Of a stretch of DNA of 64,000 nt, positions 356-60,263 are shown one piece after another. The notes under the pieces are model-generated. The model made no database searches, was not told the origin of the DNA, and was given only the letters and a program-made list of their open reading frames with translations. Location: the NCBI GenBank assembly GCA_004194705.1, contig SADC01001147.1:124001-188000 (forward strand). Direction: 5' to 3'. Within the stretch, counting starts at the first letter, position 1. Each line of letters opens with the position of its first letter. This stretch comes from Ditylenchus dipsaci. Lineage: Eukaryota > Nematoda > Chromadorea > Rhabditida > Anguinidae. The position numbers and the translations under genes are program-made.

Positions 356-727
356 GTACAGCCCGAAAAAAAGTCAGAGGAAGTTTGTGACCGAACTTAT
401 ACCGTACTTACTCTAATTTAAGCCCCCCCCTCGTTCAAAATCGTGTTTGTGGCATTGCGTTTTTGACCCACTTTTTGAAGACTGTTTCATGCAAATTACC
501 ACTCATTTTGTAGCCAGTGAGATGAGCTACAAAATGAGGTACAGTCAAACCTCGATTTAGTGGCACGCCCAAAAGTTCGTTCCCGCCTAGGGTCCGACAC
601 CTTTTTTAACCCAATTTTCGAAATACTTTATCGATTGTGTTGGCACAGTCTGGTCGCAAATATCGTAAGGATTCCGATTTTACCGATCGTTTTTTGAAAA
701 GTAAACGAATTTTGGGTTAAAAAAGGG

Positions 728-1503
728 ATAATATTTTTTTCTCACCGCAAATACACTGCGAATGCACCGCAAATTATTTTTTTCTCACCGCAATTTGATC
801 TTCCCGCAAAATACTTTTTTCTCACCGCAAAATACTTTTTTCTCACCGCAAAAATACTTTTTTCCCCCCGCAAATCTAATTTCTGTCCAAGACCAACAAA
901 ATTTTGCATAATTTTGCAAGAATTCAAATTTTTCAGCCTGAAAATGACTTGGATTGTTCAGAATCCCACCCCGGAATGGCCAGAAGCCCCTGAAAGTTGG
1001 TTTTTGGAGGTTTACTAAAGGGGGGGGTAAACTTTTTGCGAAAATTCGATTGAGCGGATCAGATTTCGGGTCCGATCGGCTCAATCGCCCACAACTCCAC
1101 CCTGAACCACTCGAAACCACCATAAACCTGGAATTTTGAGCGATTAAGCCCATCGGACCCGAAATCTGATCCGCTCAATCGAATTTTCGCAAAAAGTTTA
1201 CCCCCCCCCTTCAGTAAACCCCCAAAAAACCAACTTTCAGGGGCTTCTGGCCATTCCGGGGTGGGATTCTGAATAATCCAAGTCATTTTCAGGCTGAAAA
1301 ATTTGAATTCTTGCAAAATTATGCAAAATTTGGTTGGTCTTAGACAGAAATTAGGTTTGCGGGGGAAAAAAGTATTTTTGCGGTGAGAAAAAAGTATTTT
1401 GCGGTGAGAAAAAAGTATTTTGCGGGAAGATCAAATTGCGGTGAGAAAAAAATAATTTGCGGTGATTTTCAAGTGTTTTGCGGTGAGAAAAAAATACCAT
1501 CCT
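728..1503. mobile_element. CACCGCAAA-array foldback inserted in the pogo-like element
   Basis: The left arm repeats TTTTTTCTCACCGCAAAATA four to six times and the right arm repeats the complement TTTTGCGGTGAGAAAAAA. Between them lies an inner palindrome at 890-1345. The insertion sits left of the host palindrome's centre. A second copy of the family is at 61965-62370. Confidence 0.75.
890..1345. repeat. inner palindrome, GGTCCGATCGG/AAAGTTGG family
   Basis: An inverted repeat in which the left arm (ATTTCTGTCCAAGACCAACA, TGACTTGGATTGTTCAG, GGAATGGCCAGAAGCC, TTCGATTGAGCGGATCAG) is mirrored by the right arm. Homologous palindromes occur at 17330-17760 and 25495-25950, with a partial copy at 9475-9600, so this is a dispersed family usually found as the core of larger foldbacks. 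Confidence 0.75.
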
Positions 1504-1859
1504 TAAAAAAGTGAAACCTCGATATAGTGGCACCTGTTTTCAAAAAAGGGGTGCCACTATATCGAGGTTTCACTTTTTTACCCCAAAATTTGTTCACTTT
1601 TCAAAAAACGATCGACGAAATCGGAATCCTCACGGTATTTGCGACCAGACTGTCATAACAGAATCGATAAAATATTTTGAAAATTGAGTTAAAAAAAGTG
1701 TCGGACTCTAGGCGGGAACGAACTTTTGGGGGGTGCCACTAAATCGAGGTTTGACTGTATAACTTGTCTGACAAAAGTTTTCGAAAATTGGGCCAAAAAC
1801 ACAACGCCAAAAACATGAATTTGAATGGGGGGCTTAAATTAGAGTAGATACGGTATATT

Positions 1860-10688: not shown

Positions 10689-11745
10689 ATTTAATGCATC
10701 GAGCCCAAACCACTAATATCCGGCCCGAACAACCAATACCGGGCCCAAACACCAACATCGGGCCCAAACCACCAGGACAGGGCCCAAACCACGTGGGCAC
10801 AGCCATACAACCAGTATCAGTCCTAAACCACCAGAATCAGGCCTAAATCACTAATGTCGACGCCGAACCACCCAGATGGGCCCAAATCACGTGGGCACAC
10901 TTAAACCTCTAATATCGGGCATATACCACCGGGATGGGCTCAAACCACCTGAGCACACCGGAACCAACAATATTGGGCACAGACCACGAGAATGCGGCTC
11001 GAACCACGTGGGCACACCCAAATCACGAATATGGGCCACTGTTGCGTCTTCGACGCAAGTGATGTCTACAAATTTCTTCACTTTCCCAGTCTGGGGTTTG
11101 GTGGCCTACTGGTTAAGGCATTTCCCTGCGGATCCAAAGGGAGTGGGATCAAATATCCCCTCCATTCCCCTTTTTCCGATTCACGAGCTGTTGGCCGTGG
11201 CCGCTCGCGACACCACCACTACCCGGCCAAACCACCAGGAAGAAGCCCAAACCACGTGGGCTTACCCAAAAACCTATAGCGGGTCCAAACAACCAATACC
11301 GGGCCCAAACTACCGATATCGGTCCCAAACCACGTGGGTTCACCCAAACCACCAATACCGCGCTCAAACCACCAATATCGGGCCCAAACCACCAGAACTG
11401 GGCCCAAACCACGTGGGTTCACACAAGCCACCAATATCGGGCCTAAAACCACCAGGATGTGGCTTAAAGCACGTGGGCTCACCTAAACCACCAAAACCGA
11501 TCCCAAGCCACCAATATTGGGCCCAAACGACCAAGACGGTGCCCAAACTACGAGGGCACACCTAAACCACCGATACTGGGACCAAACCACCAATACCGAC
11601 GCAAAAACCAATATTGGGCCCAAACCACGTGGCACACCTAAACCACCGACACCGTGCTCAAACCACCAATATGGATCCCAAACCAAAAATATGGGGCTCG
11701 AACCACGTCAGCACAGCCTAGAAAATTCCTCAACTACCAGCGGGG
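10689..11745. repeat. 1 kb GGGCCCAAACCACC minisatellite with CACGTG cores
   Basis: Roughly forty to fifty units of about 20 bases, variants of ACCAATATCGGGCCCAAACC, with every third or so reading AAACCACGTGGGCACACC. At least eight copies contain the palindrome CACGTG. It is interrupted by a tRNA-like element at 11090-11225. A 229-codon open frame across it is a by-product of the repeat. Confidence 0.9.
11090..11225 (+). repeat. tRNA-derived SINE-like insert
   Basis: The segment GGTGGCCTACTGGTTAAGGC resembles a pol III A box, and GGGATCAAATATCCC 40 bases later occupies the B-box position. Flanks are minisatellite on both sides, so it is an insertion. It is not foldable into a full tRNA as far as I can see by eye. 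Confidence 0.55.
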
Positions 11746-13611: not shown

Positions 13612-14214
13612 CTGGACGACCACGCTGACCTCGAAGTGGTCATGTCGTATTTGCGGAGCTTGGTTTGGCGTTCACAAACACATTTGAAAAAAGTATGAGA
13701 ATCTAGTCTAATCTCAGATAATCTAATCTCAGCTACAAAATGAGATATTTTGCTGGCTGAGAGAACACTACCTGGCTGAAATATAGTCCCGTTTATAGTG
13801 ACATAGGCTACTGACCACGTTGACTATATTGTGGTCATTATATATGAATATAATATTATATATGAATATAATATTATATATGAATATAATATTATATATG
13901 AATATAATATATATATGAATATATATTATATGAATATATATATATGAATAATATTATATATGAATATAATATTTAAATAATGGTGGGTTGCAAAGTCAAT
14001 GAGTCCAATTATTTTTTCCTTATTAGCTTTAGATGGGTTACAATAAATGTTTGATATGACTCTTGTGTAACCCATTTAAAAGTAGTATTATGAAAAGATA
14101 ACAAAATTCTGCTCGGCTCGTAACTTATCATATTTGAAAATTGAATTTTCTCAGAATGATCACAAAGTGGTCAACGTGGTCAGGGGCGACCGTTTTAACG
14201 TGGTCGTCCTAGGG
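13612..14214. mobile_element. GGACGACCACGTT foldback with AT satellite core
   Basis: CTGGACGACCACGCTGACC at the left pairs with AACGTGGTCGTCCTAGGG at the right. The same family encloses 47584-48439. The arms include GAGATATTTTGCTGGCTGAG and GAAATATAGTCCCGTTTATAG, also present near 48255. Confidence 0.65.
13836..13975. repeat. ATATATGAATATAATATT satellite
   Basis: About eight units of TATATATGAATATAATAT in tandem. A shorter similar run is at 27645-27675. Confidence 0.9.
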
Positions 14215-29500: not shown

Positions 29501-32500
29501 TATTACTACCCGGGTACCACTACACTGCATGAATTCCCCAACCTGTGTACGACCTGGCTACAACCAAACCAAGTGGTGGTCCACTTGGATCAGAAAAAAT
29601 TTACGTTCTTCATGTTCCAAAACCGGTTTTCTCGACTAATTCGGGTATGCTGAAGATGGTTTGATAGTAGTAAAACGCCGTTTTTTTCGGGGATTTCTTG
29701 AGTTTTTCGTAAAATCGAGTTTTGGTAAAACAATTATGTCCAATACTCAAAAAATACCCGAGAAAATGGATTTTACCATTATCAAACCATCTTCAGCATG
29801 CCCGAATTAGTCGGGAAAACTGGTTTTCAAACCTAAAAAAGTAAAACAAAATCGCTCCAAACCAAGTGGATGACTACTTGGTTTGGTTGGCTGAGACTAA
29901 AAATTTCAATTCTTGCAAAATTTTCCCTGAACATGAAGGTAATAAAAACATTAGGTACACTGAAAGTGAACCTAAAAGTAAGACTAAGAGGCGATTTTTT
30001 CCTGTTGGATACACGAAAGTGAGACATGAGAATACACGAGAGTGAGAGTCAGAGTCAGAGTGAGAGTGAAAGAGTAATCCACTAATTTGATACCGGGCTT
30101 CAGGGTAGATACCTACCTACCTTCCAACTGGATAAGGGACGAAAAAAGGTCAAAATATCGAAATAAAATGACTTCCTTCAAGACAAAATATACCCTGAAA
30201 AACATACCCCAAATAACCCCCCTCAAATAACCCCCTCAAATAACCCCCCTCAAATAACCCCCCTTAAATAACCCTTATTTGGTGGGGGGGGGGTTATTTC
30301 AGGGGGTTATTTGAGGGGAGTTATTTGTGGGGGGGGGGGGGGGTTATTTGGGGGTATTTACGGCTTTGACGCTATCATACAGGGTGTTTCAAAAAAACTC
30401 CCCACTTTTTAAAACCAGTGTGAATTAATTTTTAAAAGCAATTTCCGAACCTAAGTCATATTTTATCCACTTCTCTGCGATGTTTTTTATAGAAAATAAT
30501 CTTGAAGCTACGTTCACATATTGTGACTCCGCCTCCGACTGCGCCTCCGACCACTACTTCGACTCCGACTACTTATGTGAACACTCGTGTTCACATACCG
30601 TCCTCCGACTGCGCCTCCGACTCTTGCGTGTTCACATACAGTAGTCGGAGTCGAAGGCACCTCCGACTACTCGATTTTTGCATATCAAACATGTTTGATT
30701 TTTTCGTGCATTAGAAAAACTTTTTTTGCATAGTTTGATATTTCCAAGGCTAAATTGGAGTGAGAAACCTAATTTTTGAGCTAAGCAGAGTTTTTTTTGC
30801 GAATTTTACCAGTAAACATAGCCATTCAAAATGAGTGCCACTTTTACACCAAACTATTCCAAACGTCCCAAATTATCATGAATCATCCAAAACCAACAGA
30901 AACCATTTCAAAATGGACAAAGCTTTTTTGCATCTAAAAGACTTTTTTTGCAGCTAAATGACTTTTTTCTGCAGCTAAAAGACTTTTTTTGCAGCTGTTT
31001 TTTTAAATGAAAATCTGCTTATTTTATGCTATTATTGTTGTTTTTAGCAAGGATTATTATAAATCTGAGGGGAGGAGGGGTACGAATCATATTTTGAACT
31101 CTCAGGTTCAAATCCCCTCGGTGCACACCCTATTTTTACTTCATTTTGATGTTTTTCGCACAATTTTGTTATTAAAAGGTGGCTCAGGCTCTTGTCTATC
31201 CAGCTAACCATCAGCAAAGTGTTTCGTCTTTTAGATGCAAAAAAAGTATCGCAAATAGTTTTGAATCACGCAAGGCTACCCTGAATCACCATAATATTTT
31301 ATAAACCAACCGGGACACTGGTTTAAGCTGTTTAACGTAGATCGAGGTAATTTTTGGAGGTTCAGGCCAGTTTGGTGCAGTTTTGTATGTGTGGTTAATG
31401 GTGTGCGAGAGGACAGTTGTTAAGTAGTAGGTTTCACGGCGTGTCAAACACGTCGAAAGGCGAAATCGACATTTTTCTTGTCATGACAAAAATTCGAACA
31501 CAATTAAATTTTTGGTTATTTTCTCATATTTTTCTCAACTTTGTATTCTGGTTTGTAACCCATGTTTATGTATGTCATAAAGTTGAACCTCGCTATAGTG
31601 GCACCCCCAAAAGTTCGTTCCCGCCTAGGGTCCGACACTTTTTTAAACTCAATTTTCGAAATATTTTATCGATTCTGTTATGACAGTCTGGTCGCAAATA
31701 TCGTAAGGATTCCGATTTTGCCGATCGTTTTTTGAAAAGAAAACAAAATTTGGGTTAAAAAAGTGAAATCTCGATATAGTGGCACCTGTTTTCAAAAAGG
31801 GGTGCCACTATATCGAGGTTTCACTTTTTTAACCCAAAATTCGTTTACTTTTCAAAAAACGATCGGCAAAATCGGAATCCTCACGATATTTGCGACCAGA
31901 CTGTCATAACAGAATCGATAAAATATTTTGAAAATTGGGTTAAAAAAAGTGTCAGACCCTAGGCGGGAACGAACTTTTGGGGGTGCCACTAAATCGAGGT
32001 TCAACTGTATATGAGCTATTTTTAAACCACTGGATTGCTCAGGAATCGCTCTATTGATTGGTAAACAAATTTACCCAATTTCATCAGAAATTCAAAGAGT
32101 TTGAACCAAAATAAGTTTGAATTGCCATTAGGCAGAGTCAGCTGGCCAAATGCTTTTGACTATATCTGTGTGAAACTCTATCGAAAAAAAATTCTGTCTT
32201 ACAGAAATGGAGCATTTTAATCCAGCTTTCTGATGCTATCTTTTGTTTAAAAAAAACACGTATTGAGGGATTAAAACCGGTTTTTATGAAAATTGACATG
32301 TTTTAGTAAGAAAATGGACCCTTTATCTCCGCTAATATAGCGTAATTTGGAAAAAGTCGGAAAAAGGAAAAAGCCCAGAGTCCTTGCAACTTTTTGGACT
32401 AGATTGATCAAAAACATCCGACCAAAGACCAAAGAAAAATTTTAAATCTGGAATAAAAAAGTGTCTGACCCTAGCGGGAACGAACCTTTTAATGTGTCGT

Positions 32501-35500
32501 TTAAAAAGACAGCAGAAAAAGAGGGTTATATTCAAAATTCTCAATGACACAACGCCAACGTCGATTTTGCCTTTCGACGTGTTTGACACGCCGTGGTTTG
32601 GGGTGGATTGAGGTGATAAAACTGTAAAAATTTGCGAATAGAACTTTAATCAAGTCAACAATTACTCAACTTTTAAGAAAAATCACTAGTAACTCGTGAT
32701 CCAGAACTCTATTGGTTGTCGCATAAGTTCGTTCGGTTTTTTTTTAAAAGTGTATAAATTTTTATTTTTAAAATGAATAAACAAAATGTTATACGCCGTT
32801 GGGTAGCTCTGTTTCTCCTCTTTCGGGTGATACATTACACTTTATTTTTCACAACAATTTTCAGAAAAAAAAACATTGAAACAATTCAATCAATAATGTA
32901 TTATCCTTCATTGAAGAACTCATTGAGCCATTCTTCAACTGTTGACCATTTTAGAACGGAATAAAAGAATGGCTCAATGAGTTCTCCACCTCAAAAGATG
33001 CGGGCTTTTTCCAGTGTGGGGAAAACAGTTAATTTTAACTGGATTTTGAAAATTAGTTAAAAATAACTAATTTGAAAAATAGTTAATTTTAACTGATTTT
33101 AAATTTTAGTTAAAATTAACTGAAACCCAAATCCAGTTAAAAATAGTTAAAATTCTTTATCTTTTGCTTATTTTGTCTTTTTAAGTACTTTCAGTGTTTT
33201 TAGTGCTTTTCTCGTGCTTCTCATGGTCCGAAACTTCCAAGATGGCTAATTGCAGTCATAAAAAAAAGAAAAAAATTTTTGCCTCGTGCCAGACTCGAAC
33301 TCGAGCAAAAGTTTTTTTTTTTTTTTGGCCGCCCTTGACCATTAGGCCATAGAGACTCATCTCTGAGAGAGACCATTTCGATAACATATATTAACATGGA
33401 TTTCTTTTCTCGCTTTAGTGTTCCTTAGTCTTCTAGCGACTGTTTGCCTAGAGCTCGCAAGCTAGCAAATTAAACATAAGCAGATTTTTTGTGTCATATT
33501 ATCATCGTATTCATCTTCGCATCATCCATTAACTACAGCAACACTTACTACTTGAGACAGTTGTACAAACAGAAAATTGCTTAATATTTCGCAAAAGAAT
33601 CCATGTTAATATATCTTATCGAAATGGTCTCTCTCAGAGATGAGTCTCTATGGCCTAGTGGTCAAGGGCGGCCAAAAAAAAAAAAAAAACTTTTGCTCGA
33701 GTTCTCGTCTGGCACGAGGCAAAAAATTTTTTTCTTTTTTTATGACTGCAATTAGCCATCTTGGAAGTTTCGGACCATGAGAAGCACGAGAAAAGCACTA
33801 AAAACACTGAAAAGTACTTAAAAAGACAAAATAAGCAAAAAGATAAAGAATTTTAACTATTTTTAACTGGATTTGGGTTTCAGTTAATTTTAACTAAAAT
33901 TTAAAATCAGTTAAAATTAACTATTTTTCAAATTAGTTATTTTTAACTAATTTTCAAAATCCAGTTAAAATTAACTGTTTCCCCACACTGGCTTTTTCAA
34001 ACGCGGAATTTGTAAACTTCCAGAAAGGTGGAAGAAGTCAGAAACAGTGAAGGAGAATACATTATCGATTGAATTGTTTCATTGTTTTTTTCTGAAAATT
34101 GTTGTGAAAAAAAGTGTGATGTATCATTCGAAATAGGAGAAACAGAGCTACCGAACGGCATATAACATTTTGTTGACGCTACTGGAATATACCGCACCCA
34201 AAAAACGCTACTGGAATATACCCCAGCCAATAATTTAGGCTTAGGGTTTGGCTGAGCTTTAGGCCGTAGGCTTAGGCTCAGGGCCTGGTCATTACTAATA
34301 AGGGCTTTTACACCTCTTTTTTCTTCAAAAATGGTGGTTTTAGGTACTCTCCAAAAATTATTGGGTAGGGTATATTCCAGTAGCTTTTTTGGGTGAGGTA
34401 TATTCCAGTAGCGTCATTTTCTTTATTCATTTTTAAAATGAATAATTTATACACCTCTTAAAAAAAACAGAACGGACTTATGCGACAGACCAATACATGG
34501 GTGTCTAAAACGATTTGATTAGGTACAAAGTAATTCGGTCAAGCAACTCACGCTTTATACTTTTATCCGAAAATGCAATAATCCACTTAAATACGGCCCC
34601 AAATGAAAATTTTAAAAATTTGGTGTTCACGTACTGTGACTCCGACTCCCGAGTCTGACTGCGACTCCATTGTGAACACAGGACCAAAAACGGAGTCGGA
34701 GTGGCAGTGTGTTCACAATGGCTTCGGAGTCGAAGTCGCAGTATATGAACACTTCGCAAAAACGGAGTCGGAGTCGCAGAGTATTCACAATGGCGTCGGA
34801 GTCACAGTATGTGAACAGTGGCACGAAATCGTAGTCGGAGGTGGAGGTGTGTCACATACTCCCGAGTATGTCGAGGCGGAGTCGGAGGCGGAGTCGCAGT
34901 GTGTGAACGTAGCTTAATAGTTCGTTTAAAACCTACTATGATCTAATACGGGCGATTTCCAAACTTGGAAATCGCCCGAGCAAGTGGTTACGTACACCAA
35001 TTTTTTAAAAATGGGGGAGTTTTTTTGAAACACCCTGTATACCTTTGCTCATTAGAAATTTAAAACAATAGCGAGCTGGTGTTTTGTATGTCTGAGTGTT
35101 TACAATTAAGTATACCTACCATGAACAAAAAGAGCGTCGAACAGATTCTGAATAAAAAAATATTTCTAATAACTAAAAATCAATGTTGGCAATTTGGCTG
35201 TTTGGCTTGCAAGTTACTGAACAAAATGTTTTCCCTAGTCTCTAAAGGCTTCACCGATAAAGATAAAACAAGGTTGTACAAAAAAAATAAAGCGCAAGTA
35301 ATTCTCCGTATAGCGTAATGGACCTTATTCGATTCGGGGACTACAAGGGAATCCAAGTTATATGCATAAACACCATCAAATTCGACCTCCAACTTGAACT
35401 CGAGGTACGTGAACACCCTCGAGTTAGAGTTCGGATCAGAGGTGTTCACGTAACCAAAAACCCGAACTCTAACTAGAACAACGTAAACAAGCCATAATAA

Positions 35501-59475: not shown

Positions 59476-60263
59476 TAGGGTTGTCGAGCGCTCGAAATTT
59501 TCGAGTCGAGCGCTCGATTCGATATTCGAAATTCGAAATTTTCGAGTCGAGCGCTCGATTCGATATTCGAAATTCGAAATTTTCGAGTCGAGCGCTCGAT
59601 TCGATATTCGAAATTCGAAATTTTCGAGTCGAGCGCTCGATTCGACATTCGAAATTCGAAAATTTTCGAGCGCTCGATTCGAAATCGAAAATTTTCGGCG
59701 GCTTCGCCGCCTTATTAATGGATTTTTTAGAAATAAATTAATCGAAACCATGGTTAATCGACCACACACGACCGTTTTACCACACCAAACGAATAAGCGG
59801 CCGAAAAAACTACCATTCTTGATCAAACGGCGCAGATCAGAGACTCTGAGATCGCAAAAGCACCGCTCTGGCTTTTTTCGCCTCAGAAGGTCCCAATTTT
59901 TTGTTCGCTAAGTTTTCCTTGGGCCTTGCCGATTTCAGATGACCCGAAAGATGAGTTGTTGATCTACTCTTTGGCAGTCTTAGCTCTTCCCCACAAGTGA
60001 AAATAGTCTTTTCACCGACTTTCTTAAACGATTTCCGAACTTCGCTTGGCATTTTTCTAAAACAAGAAAAATTCACCATTACATTCTTTTTTTGTGTGCT
60101 GCAAGTTCCGAACTATAACTCGAAAATAAGCGCTCAAAATTCGAAAGCATAATTCGAAATTTTTTTTCGAGCGCTCGAAATTCGAAATTTCCGCTCGAAA
60201 TTCGAAAATTTTCGAACTTTCGAGCGAAAAGTTCGAAATCGAGCGCTCGATTCGACAACCCTA
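59476..60263. mobile_element. hAT-family element with TTCGAGCGCTCG arrays
   Basis: TAGGGTTGTCGAGCGCTCGA is mirrored by TCGATTCGACAACCCTA, with perfect 8-bp duplications CTGATAAC outside. The left arm has four tandem copies of a 45-base unit (GAGTCGAGCGCTCGATTCG plus ATATTCGAAATTCG); the right arm has shorter related units. The middle carries a BED-finger-like open frame on the minus strand. Confidence 0.93.
59837..60079 (-). pseudogene. BED zinc-finger remnant of a hAT transposase
   Basis: An 80-codon frame reads MPSEVRKSFKKVGEKTIFTC and then STTHLSGHLKSARPKE. This matches the BED layout (aromatic, Cys, then HxxxxH-type end) at the N terminus of hAT transposases. One Cys of the CxxC pair is missing and the last His is Arg, so the finger is not intact. 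The catalytic domain and the dimerisation region are absent. Confidence 0.6.

Follow-up and report, generated by a model that had tools for sequence, protein, structure and literature searches.

A stack of nested miniature transposons in Ditylenchus dipsaci, with a mariner-derived foldback as passenger of a Harbinger-like element

The nesting of miniature inverted-repeat transposable elements (MITEs) within one another is well known. The question of whether the partners of a nested pair move as a unit has been raised for plant long terminal repeat (LTR) retrotransposons, and the answer given there is "probably not", on the ground that the insertion sites lay at least 50 bp apart (PMC6911290). 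The same study describes a weak preference for palindromes, which was not significant in its nested subset (P 0.50). The open-access full-text literature on co-amplified, nested or palindrome-targeting MITEs yielded nothing directly on the case described here, a 4.7-kb stack of palindromic elements at 30380-35037 of a 64,000-nucleotide stretch of the nematode Ditylenchus dipsaci (assembly GCA_004194705.1, contig SADC01001147.1, positions 124,001 to 188,000 of the forward strand; hereafter the window). We conclude, at a probability of roughly 0.9, that this stack of MITEs was built by cut-and-paste insertion and that a mariner-derived foldback (E3b) was captured by a Harbinger-like element (E2), amplified as its passenger and carried in a loaded copy into a third element (E1). 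The structure is one of ordinary nested MITEs plus clear passenger amplification.

Architecture of the stack

The stack consists of eight nested, non-autonomous small DNA transposons, given here without strand and with ends mapped to the base except for E7. Terminal inverted repeats stand at both ends of every level, and seven of the eight elements are flanked by target-site duplications (TSDs), E7 being the exception. A preliminary description of this DNA had reported palindromic shells here, each level retaining both ends; all of its named inverted repeats are present, with almost exact coordinates, and the levels are indeed separate transposons nested by insertion. The nesting it described is real, but its depth of up to five levels is ruled out by a deepest chain of four elements (E1>E2>E3a>E4 or E1>E2>E3b>E5). 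The pogo palindrome at 31580-32007 does have the facing centre ascribed to it, which is part of E4 and adds no level, and the inner arms of 33012-33990 belong to E5. All seven elements named in that description were recovered, and one insertion, E7 (~30921-31247), had been overlooked.

Copies were sought throughout the 227-Mb genome (1359 contigs) with the seven named elements, that is, all except E7, as queries. Each proved to be a repeat family: E3b occurs at 21 other places, and E1, E2, E3a, E4, E5 and E6 each have ~39-40 other copies among the best 40 candidates listed. Insert-free sites, assessed for the seven elements inside E1, were found for all of them. Because the named elements are repeat families with sisters that lack the inner inserts, a chance origin of the shells is excluded.

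The outermost element, E1 (30380-35037), is a TA-target MITE of ~246 bp with CAGGGTGTTTC ends that is split by E2 and flanked by TA at 30378-30379 and 35038-35039; its terminal inverted repeat (30377-30414/35003-35040) is 95% identical. Most of the other E1 copies with two ends (17 of 20) measure 231-281 bp. When matched half by half, 21 of 29 other copies are uninterrupted at the E2 site, and copies L032 and L033 read CTTAATAG there, an empty site with TAA. E2 (30506-34914) has AGCTACGTTCACA ends and a second-shell inverted repeat (30505-30547/34873-34915) of 91% identity, and is ~1.7 kb long counting E3b but without its private insertions. It is flanked by TGA (30503-30505) and TAA (34915-34917), and the original target was therefore TAA. 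Identical TWA triplets flank 10 of the 12 two-ended E2 sister copies (exceptions, L065 and L077), and E2 thus has the 3-bp TWA duplication of PIF/Harbinger elements.

E3b as a passenger of E2

E3b (32712-34493) is a foldback with a remnant of a transposase tail at its centre and TA duplications at 32710-32711 and 34494-34495; its arms (32717-32773/34431-34487) are 86% identical. Thirty-nine residues of this tail, taken from copy L094, match the C-terminus of Mos1 with an E value of 2.6e-7, and a Pfam search with the 44-residue tail returned no match. E3b therefore combines the TA duplication and the transposase sequence of mariner elements. In the window copy, the transposase remnant is split by E5.

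All 21 other places of E3b were inspected, and 18 of them lie inside E2 copies (12 among L062-L090, plus L091, L092, L093, L095, L097 and L099). The remainder comprise L094, a stand-alone E3b with its own TA duplication, and L096 and L098, which are E3b pieces with no adjoining E2. Wherever the left junction of a carrier can be read, E3b begins at one and the same TA (11 of 11; nine read directly, L091 and L099 by unbroken matches); others have lost one half. In seven E2 copies this position shows just one TA and no E3b. A midpoint-rooted tree of shared E2 segments, drawn from 35 sister rows, places the window copy and 13 of 13 E3b-bearing sisters in one clade and 8 of 8 E3b-free copies in the other. 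The two clades have support values of 0.71 and 0.81; a clade that adds L086, which is scored as neither carrier nor E3b-free, has 0.97. Six of the rows (L089, L092, L093, L095, L097 and L099) had fewer than 300 aligned columns and were left out.

Carriers L063, L064 and L068 have differing flanks and TTA duplications, and therefore the loaded E2 transposed as such and was not spread by segmental duplication. Because the carriers share one TA and form a single clade, E3b was inside E2 before E2 landed in E1. The preliminary description had taken the nesting itself as a direct record of insertion order, a rule that fails at this step. Nested palindromes alone do not give the insertion order, since an inner element may predate the arrival of its shell. 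One could go further and regard E2[E3b] as a two-superfamily composite, movable in principle by either transposase, in which a mariner foldback has been spread almost wholly by the transposase of a Harbinger-like element, one MITE family parasitising another, with the E3b clade as a distinct and successful lineage. This extension is tentative, and we think it less probable than the passenger history itself by a wide measure.

More palindromic MITEs are visible by eye in other copies of E2: a TTAA-flanked element in L069 and TA-flanked CAGTCGACTCTC elements in L064 and L067, both E3b arms of L067 carrying one.

Later insertions and the order of events

The remaining inserts are private to the window copy as far as can be read: none of the sister copies readable at the sites of E3a, E5, E6 and E7 carries the element in question there. 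E7 lies in E2 and has ~22-bp ends (..CTTTTTTGCATCTAAAAGAC) whose positions are approximate; it is absent at 24 of 24 readable sites among 29 E2 sister copies. It contains a B-box-like GGTTCAAATCC at 31105-31115, and a search of E7 for the A-box pattern found none. E3a (31435-32595) measures ~730 bp plus E4, with CACGGCGTGTCAAACACG ends, an inverted repeat (31435-31473/32557-32595) of 95% identity and a GTTT duplication at 31431-31434 and 32596-32599. Its site is a single stretch of 3-4 nt, with no E3a, in 12 E2 copies. Other E3a copies, L017 included, also have 4-bp duplications (GGGT in L006, TGAG in L013 and TATA in L024); the ends are of the CACGG type. E4 (31580-32007), a palindromic MITE that we take to be of the pogo/Tigger family, lies in E3a between TA duplications at 31578-31579 and 32008-32009. 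Its ends are of the CAGTTGAACCTCG type, the left one reading AAGTTGAACC after the TA and the right one being intact, and the hairpin (31577-31792/31795-32010) is 94% identical. E4 is lacking in 26 of 29 other E3a copies, which join 31579 to 32008 within 3 nt.

Within E3b, the hAT-like foldback E5 (33012-33990; 979 bp) has CAGTGTGGGG ends, arms of 99% identity (33019-33165/33838-33984) and the duplication GCTTTTTC at 33004-33011 and 33991-33998. Nine end pairs of other E5 copies were fetched and six were two-ended; four of these six have an exact 8-bp TSD, one has no duplication, and one (L106/L107) has an inverted repeat instead. The E5 site is readable in L064 and L067, which are both 7 nt shorter there, and in the stand-alone L094, which reads through it; most carriers have lost that part. 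E6 (34175-34415; 241 bp) lies in the right arm of E3b, with GACGCTACTGGAATATACC ends, an inverted repeat at 34174-34236/34355-34416 and the duplication ATTTTGTT/ATTTTCTT at 34167-34174 and 34416-34423. Its insert-free site persists in the opposite E3b arm and in sisters L065, L071, L072, L077 and L080. Among five pairs of E6 ends, the 8-bp TSD is exact in L118/L119, near-exact in L110/L111 and L116/L117, and unclear in two. E5 and E6 thus both have the 8-bp target duplication of hAT elements.

The arms of E5 had been described as tRNA-like, but contain solely A-box-like and B-box-like motifs: both arms have an A-box-like TGGCCTARTGG, the left arm also has a B-box-like GTTCGAGTC, and a poly-A run lies between (33339-33349, 33292-33300, 33651-33661). 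A scan of the window with ARAGORN (bacterial code) called no tRNA gene, and within the stack no tRNA family of Rfam matched even with the threshold at E<=5; tRNA genes in these arms were accordingly rejected. The motifs look like a captured tRNA-derived piece. The best Rfam matches were to miRNA families, below gathering scores and mainly on the pogo hairpin, and were judged to be chance hairpin matches. Elsewhere in the window, a 195-bp repeat at 11020-11214, 94% alike in L087, has tRNA-like box motifs by eye and underlies part of a 236-residue open frame at 10855-11565; it may be a tRNA-derived short interspersed element.

These data support the following history. E3b entered a TA inside one Harbinger-like E2 member, E2 multiplied with E3b as its passenger, and one loaded copy then landed in a TAA within the short TA-target MITE E1. 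E7, E3a (which received E4), E5 and E6, seen solely in the window E2 copy, are each younger than their immediate host. The transposases would have been supplied in trans. Boundaries, TSDs, insert-free sites and the shared E3b insertion are directly visible, and most superfamily names are probable assignments from target duplications, for E3b also from transposase sequence. Because a cut-and-paste element can carry a load, E3a, E5, E6 and E7 may have arrived either before or after the landing in E1, and their mutual order is likewise not fixed. Full-arm identity is 94% for E1, 90.5% for E2, 95% for E3a, 93% for E4, 89-90% for E3b, 98.5% for E5 and 95% for E6. The arms of E3b are thus more diverged than the outermost ones, a pattern that the preliminary description had named as grounds for refuting its reading. 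Divergence is an unreliable clock, because arms may already differ in the founder element, and it was set aside.

Alternatives and comparison with known transposons

Several points weigh against this history of capture, passenger amplification and insertion. E7 has no clear TSD, and the window TSDs of E2 (TGA/TAA) and E6 each carry one mismatch. Transposase comparison was limited to the mariner tail of E3b, and coding capacity was judged from the list of open reading frames. The E2 tree was rooted at its midpoint by assumption, and only improbability and the clade pattern exclude a recurrent entry of E3b into one TA. Two counts also favour other explanations. E2 targets have a symmetry of 4.27 of 12 compared to 3.11 in controls (11 sites, z 2.4), an excess driven by L089 that falls to ~3.5 without it, and the window copy of E2 has 4 private insertions compared to 0-3 in 12 complete sisters. 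The latter would be expected of a local hot spot, an insertion-tolerant region (intergenic, silenced) in which elements pile up irrespective of palindromes, as would the fact that 61 inverted-repeat spans, the stack included, occupy 49% of the window. Ten of the 12 complete sisters have no private insertion. The comparison is, however, censored by loci cut at ~3.2 kb, so that sisters with a heavy load escape it; it leaves out 17 partial copies, it misses insertions common to two other loci, and the stack was singled out for being the most conspicuous nest in the window. Mild clustering in the window copy is possible, and as an account of the whole stack we regard a hot spot as improbable, though it is the strongest competitor. 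An origin of the arms in one event, by nested inverted duplication or through faulty assembly, has only the symmetrical look of the stack in its favour. Each of the seven named shells belongs to a different repeat family, which occurs on many contigs and has its own TSDs, and the insert-free sites of the inner elements, which the preliminary description had proposed as a check, contradict a common origin; we consider this explanation refuted.

A further explanation is strict outside-in insertion in which new elements pick the single-stranded loop or the centre of a hairpin already in place. The preliminary description had proposed such a preference, and a few odd copies agree with it. E2 is placed almost exactly at the midpoint of E1, at a relative position of 0.506, and E5 has a position of 0.549 between the arms of E3b. 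The E5 copy L106/L107 (C270) has no direct duplication, and its flanks form an inverted repeat of at least 8 bp (GACCCGCAGG/CCTGCGGGTC). L089 has two E2-type ends at a distance of 605 bp, with a perfect inverted repeat of at least 12 bp on either side of the pair (CCCACGCTATTG/CAATAGCGTGGG and beyond). L089 may be an insertion at a palindrome centre, or else an inverted rearrangement, because the part of E2 used for the search does not lie between these two ends. A palindromic element with TTTTTCTCACCGCAAA repeats (~729-1500) interrupts a second E4-type pogo palindrome in the window (542-1757), fairly close to the middle of that palindrome. Of the 7 insertions in the stack, 6 are placed between the host arms compared to 4.9 expected, and insertions stand on average 0.179 from the host centre compared to 0.25 expected (P=0.10). 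Against loop choice, E3b predates the landing of E2, E6 lies in an arm, and E4, E7 and E3a are off-centre (0.198, 0.246 and 0.358). Among related copies elsewhere, 3 of 45 insertion points fall in inverted-repeat loops (4 of 45 with L089, which was scored as "arm", one base short of the centre class), compared to 39 of 450 control points in the same flanks; 82 of 600 random points in the window do so. This analysis used 350 bp of joined flank per side for the copies with both ends recognised (20 of 29 for E1, 7 of 29 for E2 and 18 of 29 for E3a), and the E3a points L013, L015 and L016, having a flank in common, do not count as independent. Local target symmetry equals the control for E1 (3.10 of 12 compared to 3.32) and E3a (3.22 compared to 3.22). 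In 38 of 40 other pogo copies listed, both arms are present 8-84 nt apart (counted by eye), and these 38 therefore have no large central insert. Moreover, with about half of the sequence in inverted-repeat spans, no preference for centres is needed. Loop counts, symmetry, pogo hairpins and stack positions thus speak together against palindrome-centre targeting, which we regard as very unlikely.

Three other features were noted. A 41-bp unit rich in TCGA palindromes forms five tandem copies (95%) at 59492-59690, and an AT-rich palindromic 18-bp unit forms eight at 13837-13973. The 22-nt nematode spliced leader SL1, searched with what we take to be its sequence, has 58 exact copies in the genome compared to 0 for the reversed control; eight lie in one array with steps of ~1.17 kb, the last being a double step.

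The stack shares with the MITEs of Tc1/mariner (including pogo/Tigger) and hAT its short elements, terminal inverted repeats, many copies and TA or 8-bp target duplications. Unlike those MITEs, several of its elements are long foldbacks, and the arms of E5 carry A-box- and B-box-like motifs. E2 resembles the PIF/Harbinger (Tourist-type) MITEs in its 3-bp TWA duplication and terminal inverted repeats, and differs from them in its subterminal GGAGTC/GTTCACA repeats and its mariner passenger. With the nested plant LTR retrotransposon pairs (PMC6911290) the stack has in common elements within elements and the question of whether a pair moves as a unit; unlike those pairs, E3b occupies one and the same TA in E2 copies whose flanks differ. 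E2[E3b] is thus a clear example of a nested pair of DNA elements co-mobilised at an identical site.

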